A DNA stretch of 64,000 bases from assembly GCF_014058705.1 (NCBI RefSeq), contig NZ_CP059692.1:1-64000 (forward strand), read 5' to 3'. This DNA is from Aureimonas mangrovi (lineage in GTDB: Bacteria > Pseudomonadota > Alphaproteobacteria > Rhizobiales > Rhizobiaceae). The notes beneath the pieces were generated by a model. That model saw only the letters and a list, made by a program, of their open reading frames with translations, was not told the origin of the DNA and searched no databases. Shown here piece by piece: positions 21,464 to 26,607 of the stretch. A program made the translations under genes and the position numbers. How positions within the stretch are numbered: the stretch's first letter is position 1; every line of letters starts with the position of its first letter.

Positions 21464-22450
21464 TCAGCCCCGCCCGCCGAAGACCCGCTTGGGGTGGAAG
21501 GCCCCCTCCTCCACCGAGCCGATGGCGACCAGCCGTCCACGACCGGTGGCGAAAGCCTCCTCGCAGAAGGCCGGCGCATCGCGGCCGCGCAGAAGCACCG
21601 GGTTGCCGGATCGCACGCGCCCTGCCTGGTCCTCGGAGAGAGAGACCTCGTAGAGATCGCCGAGCGCGGTCGCGGGATCGAGGAGGATGTCGTCGAGCGG
21701 GCCGAACTCGACGACGCGCGCGGTCGAGCCCGCCTCGACAGCCGCCTCGTCCAGCGTCTCGCGTCCCTCGTCGGCCGCCGCTTCCAGATCCTCCAGCGTG
21801 ATCAGGTCGTCCTCGTCGAAACCGCCGACCGCGATGCGTCGCAGGTCGATCACGTGGCCGAAGCAGCCGAGATCGCGGCCGAGGTCGCGCGCGATGGCGC
21901 GCACATAGGTGCCCTTTCCGCATTCGGCTTCGAAGACCGTCGTCTCGCCGTCCGGCATGTCGACGATCTGGAGCCGATGCACCTCGACGGTGCGCGCTGC
22001 GATTTCCACAGCCTCGCCGCCACGGGCGATGTCGTAGGCGCGTTCGCCGTCGATCTTGATCGCCGAGAACTGCGGCGGCACCTGGCTGATCGCGCCGGTG
22101 TAATCGGGCAGCAGCGCCTCGATCGCGGCACGCGCGGGACGCGTGTCGGAGGCGTTCGTCACCGGCCCCTCGGTGTCGTCGGTCGTCGTCTCCGCGCCCC
22201 AGCGCACGGCGAAGCGGTAGACCTTGCGCCCGTCCATCACGTAGGGGACCGTCTTCGTCGCATCACCGAGCGCGATCGGCAGCATGCCGGAGGCCAGCGG
22301 GTCGAGCGTACCGGCATGGCCCGCCTTCTGGGCGAAGTAGAGCCACTTGATCTTGGCCACGGCCTGCGTGGAGCCCATGCCCTTCGGCTTGTCGAAGATT
22401 ACCCAGCCCGAGACCGGGCGGCCTTTCGGCCTGCGGTTGCCGCGCGCCAT
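21464..22450 (-). CDS. truB: tRNA pseudouridine-55 synthase TruB
   Basis: TruB converts U55 in the T-loop of tRNAs to pseudouridine. The 328-residue protein carries the catalytic Asp50 in [14 protein letters not shown], plus the family stretches [14 protein letters not shown] and [17 protein letters not shown], and a C-terminal PUA-like extension. Its ATG overlaps the rbfA stop by one base (TGATG), indicating translational coupling. It ends the rimP-to-truB run. The neighbouring FMN reductase converges with only 24 bases between stops and no visible terminator. Confidence 0.97.
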
Positions 22451-22869
22451 CAGCCCCGGCCCTCCTCGTCCTCGTCGCCAAGGTCGCGGGCGACCTCCGG
22501 CGAGCGCAGCAGCGCATCGATGCGGGCGTAATTGTCGAAACTTTCGTCCTGGCGGAACCGGATTTCGGGCATGTACTTCATCTGGCGTAGGGCGGGGCCG
22601 AGGCGCCCGCGGAGAAACCTGGCGTGGCGGTTCAGCGCCTCGACGTAGGGCTGGACGTCGTCCTGCCCGAGCACCGAGATGTAGGCCGTGGCGAGCTTGA
22701 GGTCGGGCGACATGCGCACCTCGGTCACCGAGACGACGGCGCCCTCGATCAACGGGTCGCCCCGGATCTCGCCGCGCTGCAAGGTCTCGGTCAGCGCGTG
22801 GCGCACCTTCTCGCCCACGGAGAGCTGACGCTGGGAGGGGCCGCTCGCGCGGCCTTGGGTCTTCTTCAT
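22450..22869 (-). CDS. rbfA: 30S ribosome-binding factor RbfA
   Basis: RbfA is a KH-like factor for late 30S maturation and 16S rRNA 5'-end processing. The 139-residue product has the typical pieces [30 protein letters not shown] and [21 protein letters not shown]. Its start overlaps the stop of the preceding ORF (ATGA) and its stop overlaps truB, so it is embedded in a tightly coupled translation-factor operon. The acidic C-terminus (DLGDEDEEG) is common in alphaproteobacterial RbfA. Confidence 0.95.
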
Positions 22870-23410
22870 ACGGTGTCCGTCTTGGGGTCGCTCGCCGTGG
22901 CCGGCTTCAGTGTGCGCTCGCGCGTCATGCGGGGCCGGGTGCGCGGGGCACGCCCGTACCAGCCTTCCAGCACGTTGTCGAAGTCTTTCCGTTCGGCCTC
23001 GTCGAAGGCGTTATTCGTGATCGAAGTCGCCGGCGCGGTGGAGAACTTGAGGTGGCCGTCAGGACGATCGACGGCAGGGTGGCCGTCGAAGGTCGGCGTG
23101 CGGGTCTCGTCCAGAACGGGCGCGCCGTCGCTCGTCCGCGCCGCCGGCCCGTGCGTCCGTGGCGCATGTCGCCCGTCCCGCGTCTCGATGTCCGTCATCG
23201 CCTCGCGCCTCTCCTCGATGTGCAGGCGAACGTCTTCGATGCTCGCCGGCCCACACAAGCCTCGCCTCGGGAGAATGATCGCGCGGCGTCTTCCGATCCA
23301 CAGGAGCGGGTGTTCGGGGCGCTGTCCACGAAGAGCGCTGCCGGATAGGCGAAGCGCTCGACCGTGTCGCCATGATAGTCTCGCGGCTCCAGCCGATAGA
23401 CGAAGCGCAT
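22866..23410 (-). pseudogene. Frameshifted ORF between infB and rbfA, family unknown
   Basis: Two overlapping pieces lie here. From ATG 23410 the frame reads MRFVYRLEPRDYHGDTVERF and onward with GC-rich third positions for about 34 codons, then becomes unlike coding sequence until a stop at 23195. The other frame becomes coding-like from about 23320 (PLLWIGRRRAIILPRRG, then ASIEDVRLHIEERREA) and runs to 22866, where its stop overlaps rbfA. A one-base loss around 23301-23330 in an original gene of about 181 codons explains both. Alternatives are -1 ribosomal frameshifting, an assembly error, or a separate 110-residue protein from ATG 23198, whose start overlaps the first stop as ATGA. No family is recognised. 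Confidence 0.6.
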
Positions 23411-23493
23411 GGGCGGGCGACCTCTCCCTCAGGAAACGAGACGGCGCCCGCCCCGAGGGGCGGACGCCGCATGTTCGATCCTCGTGGCTTGCG

Positions 23494-26400
23494 TCAGAGC
23501 GTGCGCGCGACGTGTTCGACGCGGAAGCACTCGATGACGTCGCCCTGGCGGATGTCGTCGTAGTTCTGGAAGGCCATGCCGCACTCCTGGCCGCCCGGCA
23601 CCTCGGCCACTTCGTCCTTGAAGCGCTTGAGCGTCTTGAGCGTGCCCTCGTGGATGACGACGCCGTCGCGGATGAGGCGCACGCCAGCACCGCGCTCGAC
23701 CTTGCCTTCCGTGACACGGCAGCCCGCGACCTTGCCGACCTTGGTGATGTGGAAGACCTCGAGGATCTCCGCATTGCCGAGGAAGGTCTCGCGACGCTCC
23801 GGCGAAAGGAGACCCGACATCGCCGCTTTCACGTCGTCCACGAGGTCGTAGATGACGTTGTAGTAGCGGATCTCGATGCCCGACTGGTCGGCTGCCTGAC
23901 GCGCCTGCGTGTTGGCACGCACGTTGAAGCCGATGATCGCAGCGTTCGAGGTCTGGGCGAGCTGGACGTCGGATTCGGTGATGGCACCGGCGCCCGAATG
24001 GACGATGCGCGCCTGCACCTCTTCCGTGCCCAGCTTCTCCAGCGCGACCGAGATCGCCTCGACCGAGCCCTGCACGTCGCCCTTGATGACGAGGGGGAAG
24101 GTCTTAAGGCCCGAGTCCTGAAGCTGGCTCATCATCTGCTCGAGCGAGCCGCGCTGACCGGCCGACTTGGCCACCGCCTTCTCGCGGGCTAGCCGCTGGC
24201 GGTAGTCCGCGATCTCGCGGGCCTGCGCCTCGTCGCGCACCACGGCGAAGCGGTCGCCGGCACCCGGCGTGCCCTGCATGCCGAGAACCTCGACGGGCAT
24301 GGACGGGCCGGCGGTCTTCAGCTGCTTGCCCTTGTCGTCGACGAGGGCGCGCACGCGGCCCCACTGATCGCCGGCCACCACGATGTCACCGGTCTTGAGC
24401 GTGCCGGCCTGCACGAGCACGCTCGCCACCGGGCCGCGGCCCTTGTCGAGCTTGGCCTCGATCACGACGCCCTCGGCCGTGCGGTCGGGATCGGCCTTCA
24501 GGTCGAGGATCTCGGCCTGCAGGATGATCGCCTCCAGCAGCTTGTCGAGATTGGTGCCGTTCTTGGCCGACACCTCGACGTCGAGCACTTCGCCGCCCAT
24601 CGATTCGACGAACACTTCGTGCTGCAGCAGCCCGGTGCGGACCTTGGATGCGTCCGCGCCCGGCTTGTCGATCTTGTTGATCGCCACGATGATCGGAACG
24701 CCGGCCGCCTTGGCATGGCTGATCGATTCGATCGTCTGCGGCATCACCGAATCGTCCGCCGCCACCACGAGGATCGCGATGTCGGTCGCCTGCGCGCCGC
24801 GGGCACGCATCGCGGTGAAGGCGGCGTGGCCCGGCGTATCGATGAAGGTGATCGGCTGGCCGTCCTGCTCGATCTGGTAGGCGCCGATATGCTGCGTGAT
24901 GCCGCCGGCCTCGCCGGAGACGACGTTGGTCTTGCGCAGCGCATCGAGGAGCGAGGTCTTGCCGTGGTCGACATGGCCCATGATCGTCACGACCGGCGGA
25001 CGCGAGATCATCTTCTCCGGATCGTCGGCGACGTCGAACATGCCTTCCTCGACGTCGGACGCGGCAACACGCTTGACCATGTGGCCGAACTCGGCCGCGA
25101 TCAGCTCGGCGAGATCGGCCTCGATCACGTCGCCCGGCTTCATCATCTGGCCCTGGGCCATAAGGTACTTGATGACGTCGACGGCTCGCTCCGACATGCG
25201 GTTGGCGAGTTCCTGGATGGTGATGGTCTCGGGTAGAATCACTTCGCGGGCAATCTTCTCGCGTGGCTGGCTCTGCTGCGAGCGCTTGAACTTCTCCTGA
25301 CGCCTGCGCATCGAGGAGAGCGAACGGCCGCGCGCATCGTCGTCCGACAGGGCGCGGTCGAGGTTGACGCGGCCGGCACGACGGTCGGCATCGCCGCGTC
25401 CGCGCGTCGGCTTGGCGGCCTCCGCCGTGCGCGCGCCGGGACGGCGGGCGCGGTCGTCCTCGTCCGCCTTGGAGCGGGCGCGTCCGTCGAGCGAGCGACC
25501 GGCCGGGCGAAGGCCGAGATCGTCGGCCGGCGGCGGCGGGCCGGGAATGACGTTGGCGCCGGCGCCGGCCGGGCCACGGGAGGTCGGACGGGCCTGCGCG
25601 CGACGCTGCGCATCCTCCTCGGCCTTCTTGCGGGCAGCCGCCTCCATCTCGAGACGCGCGGCCTCCTCGGCCTGACGGCGCTCGGATTCCTCACGCTCGG
25701 CGCGGCGGCGTTCGTCCTCGGCGATGCGCCGGGCCTCTTCCTCCTGGAACAGGCGGCGATCCTCGACCTCACGCTGGCGTGCAAGCTCGAGCGCGCGGCG
25801 ACGCGCGTCCATTTCCTTCGACGACAGGTCCGATAGGACCGCGCCGCGCGGCTGGCGGGCACCGGGAGCCGGAGAGCGCTGCGGAGCGCCGCCCGGACGG
25901 TTGCCGGCCGGAGCACCGGGACGCGAGGACTGGCCGGGGCGATTGCCGACGGGCGCTCCGGGGCGGGCGCCGGGCGCGGGGCGCGCCGGAGTTGCGGGCG
26001 ATGCGGGGCGGGCGGTTGCGGCGGGCGCAGCCGGACGCGCCGGAGCGGGCGCGGCCGCTGCCACGGGCGCGGCAGGCGCTTCCTTCACAGGGGCGGTCTC
26101 GGCCTTCGCCTCTATGGGCGCTGGCGCGGAAGACGGTGCAGGAGCCGGGGCAGCCGCGGGCTCACTCTTCGCCGGAGCGGCCTCGGCGGCCTTCGCCTCG
26201 GCAGCGGCGGCCTCCTCCTTTGCGCGCGTCTCGGCGGCGCGTGTGGCTTCCGCCTCGCGCTCGGCCGCAGCCTTCGCCTCGGCGGCGGCGGCCTCTTCCC
26301 GCGCGCGGGCCTCTGCGGCCTCGGCCTCGGCGGCTTCCTGCGCCCTCACGTTGGCGAGCGCCTGCGCCTGGGCTGGCGTCAGGGACGGACGCGGACCGAG

Positions 26401-26607
26401 CCCGGCCGCGACCGAGCCGGAAGCCGCAGCGGGGCCTTCCGGCTTGTTGATCCGGCGCTTCTTCGTCTCGACGACGACGCTGTTGGAGCGCCCGTGCGAG
26501 AAGTTCTGCCGCACCGTCGACTGCGAGACGCCGCCGGGCTTGATCGACAGCGTCTTCTTCGGCTGAACGCTCAGCGTCTTGTCGTCGCCCGATTTCGTAT
26601 CGCTCAT
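23494..26607 (-). CDS. infB: Translation initiation factor IF-2
   Basis: IF-2 is the GTPase that delivers fMet-tRNA to the 30S P site and promotes subunit joining. It is 1037 residues long, larger than the E. coli protein because of a long N-terminal region rich in Ala, Glu, Arg and Pro with several GAPxGNRPG-like repeats (about 220-255). The G domain has [15 protein letters not shown] (about residue 545), [15 protein letters not shown] and NKIDKPGAD, followed by the usual domains II, III and IV. It abuts ylxR with no gap (stop TAG directly before ATG), so the two are co-translated. Confidence 0.98.

Follow-up and report, generated by a model that had tools for sequence, protein, structure and literature searches.

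A probable YcxB-family pseudogene between infB and rbfA in Aureimonas mangrovi

What are the two short, overlapping reading frames that lie between infB and rbfA in Aureimonas mangrovi? A first-pass annotation, made from the letters of the DNA, had offered three answers: a gene in decay, an assembly error, or programmed -1 frameshifting within the translation operon. Comparison with relatives favors the first of these. We conclude that the stretch is quite probably a pseudogene, the remnant of a membrane-protein gene of the YcxB family (PF14317) that once stood directly behind infB.

The locus lies on the minus strand of the window, by which we mean the whole 64,000-nucleotide stretch of contig NZ_CP059692.1 analyzed here. 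Upstream is infB (23494..26607), an open frame of 1037 aa for translation initiation factor IF2, and downstream is rbfA (22450..22869), an open frame of 139 aa for ribosome-binding factor A. The last 250 residues of infB are 86-93% identical to their best matches among 20 genus relatives, and a search for rbfA gave a match in each of 61 genomes, among them that of the window. The gap between the two genes spans 624 nt and contains ORF A (23195..23410; 71 codons, frame 1) and ORF B (22866..23198; 110 codons, frame 3, which is -1 relative to ORF A). ATGA overlaps had been reported at both later junctions and are indeed present: the stop of ORF A overlaps the ATG of ORF B at 23195..23198, and the stop of ORF B overlaps the start of rbfA at 22866..22869. 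Directly past infB, RNAfold predicts a hairpin with a 13-bp stem (23441..23470). The first 80 nt after infB also hold predicted G+C-rich hairpins in genus relatives (L005-L024; RNAfold), often two of them consecutively.

The coding signal changes frame within the gap. It had been described as running in frame 1 first and in the -1 frame thereafter, and a codon score trained on the window's own genes bears this out: a path through both frames reaches +46.3 bits, whereas one confined to frame 1 scores -86.6 and one confined to frame 3 scores -4.1. The switch is best placed at 23308. Positions 23302..23326, the main zone of the frame change, lie within 3 bits of it, as do 23281-23287 and 23248. 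Along this path, the first 27 codons of ORF A score 0.65 bits/codon in frame 1, the 43 frame-3 codons immediately ahead of ORF B score 0.05, and ORF B itself reaches 0.20 in that frame. In a comparison with 2000 resamples from a first-order Markov model, the start of ORF A gives P 0.0005 and the frame-3 stretch ahead of ORF B only P 0.08. An open run of 208 codons is not unusual for the composition (P 0.119).

A gene occupies the same genomic place, on the same strand behind infB, in one member of the genus. Aureimonas sp. ME7 carries an intact 176-aa gene of the YcxB family (PF14317) between infB and rbfA (L043, 3274-3804); its gap measures 778 nt and its protein scores 38.5 bits against the Pfam YcxB profile. 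In the other 19 of the 20 genus relatives, the gap is 120-330 nt long and lacks such a gene. When the frame-3 protein of the window was searched against 21 genus genomes, it matched itself and the ME7 YcxB gene only (E 0.0058). The gaps of the window and its 20 relatives were also searched with two YcxB HMMs, made from 13 and from 36 sequences. ME7 came first at E about 1e-41, being itself a training sequence, and the frame-3 piece of the window came second at E 0.001, with nothing further above the inclusion threshold.

Two pieces of the window resemble YcxB proteins, and they differ in how firmly they do so. At the level of sequence, the C-terminal match is solid. This piece (23199..23330, frame 3, core QRPEHPLLWIGRRRAIILPRRGL) shares 12 of 21 residues with the ME7 protein in a block of the form RPEH-LLW-RA-I-P-R, and the alignment has a score of 71, whereas none of 300 shuffles went above 53. 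In hmmsearch over 1139 six-frame segments of the window, it ranks first with both HMMs (E 0.015 with the 13-sequence HMM and E 0.0057 with the 36-sequence HMM); with the latter, the next-best segment stands at E 0.053, about tenfold behind. Against the Pfam YcxB profile, it gives E values of 0.015 and 0.025 (15.5 and 14.8 bits) over profile positions 36-60 of 61, which places the window remnant below the PF14317 gathering cut-off of 23.3 bits. At the thresholds applied, the rest of the window's genome yielded no YcxB match.

The N-terminal match is only suggestive. This probable piece (23375..23410, frame 1), MRFVYRLEPRDY, lies at the start of ORF A and shares 10 of 13 residues, over PMRFVYRLEPRDY, with the start of the YcxB protein of genome G055, whose gene is also linked to infB. 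Its score was equalled or beaten in 2 of 300 shuffles. The 13-sequence HMM places it third of the 1139 segments, at E 1.1; the 36-sequence HMM does not list it at E 10. Beyond its start, ORF A appears to be out of frame, while ORF B continues the frame of the C-terminal piece.

The distance between the two pieces points to a large internal loss. In the intact G055 protein, the two motifs are about 119 residues apart; in the window they are separated by 56 nt. Thus, roughly 300 nt of the gene core are missing. A model of the ME7 protein places helices at residues 35-56 and 65-87, before the C-terminal domain; built from four sequences with a mean pLDDT of 53, it is of low confidence and was used solely for the order of helices and strands. 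On this model, there is no room for the predicted membrane helices within the 56 nt that separate the window's two pieces. The homologues that we read are usually 165-236 codons long and in one frame, against two frames in the window and a YcxB-like part of about 70 codons.

The history of the gene within the genus cannot be followed through the nearest relative. In a tree of infB, rbfA and truB segments, the window stands beside genome G003 (support 0.916) and ME7 is placed elsewhere. G003, the window's closest relative on this tree, has no trace of ycxB in its gap, and the window's copy is therefore untraceable through it. Since G003 lacks the gene and ME7 sits elsewhere on the tree, the presence of ycxB in the genus is patchy, through either repeated loss or repeated gain. 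At the nucleotide level, none of the alignments of the window's gap with the 20 genus gaps, that of ME7 included, outscored the best of 100 shuffles.

We propose that the original ycxB gene had roughly 175 codons and belonged to the infB operon, immediately behind infB. Most of its core, including the predicted membrane helices, would have gone in an internal loss of roughly 300 nt. Judging from intact relatives, a -1 frame change would also have parted the surviving ends. From the ATG at 23410, ribosomes would now translate 71 residues, the last of them nonsense, and halt at the ATGA; from there they could restart on ORF B and then on rbfA, so that translational coupling to rbfA may persist. 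ORF B itself would most likely be derived from the tail of the gene or be a chance open frame. The suggestion of a decayed gene holds up: ME7 and other relatives carry a single-frame YcxB gene at the same place, and the window carries one clear and one probable piece of it, in two frames. The frame switch, seen independently in codon statistics, also supports the pseudogene reading.

The remnant resembles the YcxB-like family in its place, its strand, its C-terminal block and, suggestively, a start like that of the G055 protein, and it differs from the family in lacking about 300 nt of core, in being split over two frames and in falling under the Pfam cut-off. It also resembles an ordinary operon pseudogene, with a deletion and a frame change, patchy presence among relatives and open neighbors, although the window retains ATGA overlaps and a putative coupling to rbfA. 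As for the expectation of intact homologues of about 181 residues in relatives, the figure of 181 looks coincidental: the span is the sum of a brief remnant and a 110-codon ORF for which no relatives are known.

Several observations weigh against the pseudogene reading. ORF B has a third-position GC of 0.85 and coding-like statistics, more than a long-dead stretch needs. The frame-3 stretch that holds the C-terminal piece has the weak codon score given above. The Pfam cut-off is not reached, and with the larger HMM the C-terminal piece leads the next segment only about tenfold. The N-terminal piece is missing from the list of that HMM, and shuffles can reach its score. Finally, G003 is without a trace of the gene, and none of the genus gaps aligns with the window's at the nucleotide level any better than the best shuffle. 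Even so, we regard decay as the probable explanation. As a pseudogene the locus is an ordinary one; reading it in this way answers most of the question of a frameshift and is a caution to annotators not to enter ORFs A and B as genes.

An alternative takes ORF B for a real orphan gene of recent origin, restarted at the ATGA and coupled to rbfA, with ORF A merely its leader. The codon score of ORF B exceeds that of all 2000 Markov resamples, its own frame is the best of six, and ATGA overlaps flank it at both ends. However, when stop-free stretches of 110 codons were taken from real genes in the wrong frame, 23 of 102 scored as high, and its coding signal is thus weak. The overlap with rbfA also says little and needs no gene B, because rbfA begins with ATGAAG in ME7 as well, where ORF B is absent. 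Furthermore, among 397 genomes of the order, the window itself is the sole match to ORF B, and an AlphaFold model from this one sequence is of low confidence (mean pLDDT 58, pTM 0.15). ORF B has no match in Pfam, PHROGs or NCBIfam; the whole frame-3 protein has none among phages and plasmids at E 0.1; and matches of ORF B to the PDB are weak only, the best at E 0.035. We therefore consider an orphan gene unlikely.

Two further observations concern the origin of ORF B. With a 115-residue query against 61 genomes, it found itself and one weak match in G018 (L003, E 0.0088), which lies at a different place in the genome and which we take to be a putative chance match. As a normal YcxB tail, ORF B would be too long: frame 3 runs for 129 residues from the C-terminal block to the stop, against 22-59 residues in those 22 of 24 infB-linked loci that have a recognized block. 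Its origin would be one of two: a tail of unusual length left by the dead gene, or an open frame that is young or due to chance. Separately, the ATGAAG start of rbfA occurs only in the window and in ME7 (L007), the two with a ycxB remnant or gene; in the remaining 19 of the 20 genus relatives, rbfA starts with ATGG or ATGC.

It is about equally improbable that the locus holds a shortened, YcxB-derived gene with a single open frame of about 181 codons, from 23410 to rbfA, and that an error in sequencing or assembly created the frame change. A short homopolymer does sit in the switch zone, frame 3 is open all the way to rbfA, and the third-position GC of ORF B is coding-like. An error of this kind, which had been raised at the outset, could account for the frame change but leaves the absence of about 300 nt of core unexplained. 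The single-frame product would have neither the predicted membrane helices nor the bulk of the core, and would end in a 129-residue tail, against 22-59 residues in relatives with a measurable tail. Moreover, the neighboring reading frames of infB, rbfA and truB are all open.

Programmed -1 frameshifting, which would yield a 71-residue product and a longer fusion, is very improbable: although the two-frame codon statistics and the ATGA restart site where ORF A ends would fit it, no XXXYYYZ slippery heptamer occurs in 23410..23195, 24 of 24 infB-linked loci have one unbroken frame of 169-236 codons as their largest gap ORF, and the gene core is gone. Programmed -1 frameshift cassettes of the dnaX type use an X XXY YYZ slippery heptamer. 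The window is like them in that its coding signal moves into the -1 frame; it is unlike them in having no such heptamer, single-frame relatives and a product whose core is missing. Two of the 55 matches listed in a profile search biased toward infB (G233 and G288, from the searches described below) have an internal stop.

Beyond the genus, ycxB lies next to infB in a sizeable part of the loci that we examined. In the order, a Pfam query gave 68 matches in 347 genomes, and infB was present in 13 of the 30 loci examined; in the class, the same query found infB in 4 of 10 loci (337 genomes), one of the four, L202, being under the Pfam cut-off. In all of these 17 loci, ycxB is on the strand of infB and 3' of its end, and rbfA comes next in 14 of the 17. 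In a smaller Pfam search, infB was linked to 3 of 7 matches. With the G055 protein as query, itself infB-linked, 10 of 11 loci were linked to infB. The profile biased toward infB gave 24 linked loci out of 30 examined, among 55 matches listed. This last count is biased toward linkage because 8 of the 10 rows of alignment A2 are infB-linked: seven come from the infB-rbfA gap and the eighth, L036, is linked to infB. Three of the 30 profile-search loci (L123-L125) also repeat rows of A2. The Pfam searches are free of this bias. Six of the 10 members of A2 match PF14317 at E 0.01; the other four rest on alignment, position and profile similarity.

In some lineages, the association involves infB alone. 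Six loci of the G055 group (L154-L159) have infB adjoining ycxB but do not contain rbfA, and in G055 itself rbfA lies far off on the same contig. The link in this group is to infB, since rbfA is not adjacent there. Tandem pairs of ycxB copies occur in G046, G229 and G333. The infB-linked ycxB loci comprise L036, L154-L163, 24 out of L123-L152 (30 loci) and 17 out of L034, L036 and L165-L202 (40 loci), L036 thus entering twice.

This linkage, which is incidental to the pseudogene and possibly unreported, deserves a note. It was not found in the open-access full-text literature, a scope that leaves aside most subscription papers and bioRxiv preprints. The YcxB family is called uncharacterized and predicted transmembrane in a passage of one report (PMC8112048), and the ycxB-sipU region of Bacillus subtilis is named among deleted non-essential regions in a section of another (PMC4893254). 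We tentatively suggest, while holding it doubtful, that across Alphaproteobacteria infB is repeatedly, though patchily, accompanied by the gene of a YcxB-family membrane protein, in a partnership that is unrecorded. Because this gene stays with infB even where rbfA is not its neighbor, its product may act with IF2 or in co-translational membrane targeting. If this is true, the window would represent a lineage that lost ycxB recently enough for the ends of the gene to remain readable. For the uncharacterized YcxB family, the linkage to infB is a genomic hint.

The gap between infB and rbfA holds other small ORFs elsewhere. In L091 (a Roseitalea MAG) and L106 (Hoeflea olei), it contains another pair of small overlapping ORFs, of 98 and 110 aa and of 125 and 105 aa, respectively, whose second members share the stretch NILRLER. 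These ORFs look unrelated to ycxB, and the infB-rbfA gap may have taken in small genes more than once. A further locus, L078, comes from a record titled Bacillus subtilis strain SK6B4; its rbfA is 66% identical to that of the window and has infB upstream, and the record is probably mislabelled or contaminated.
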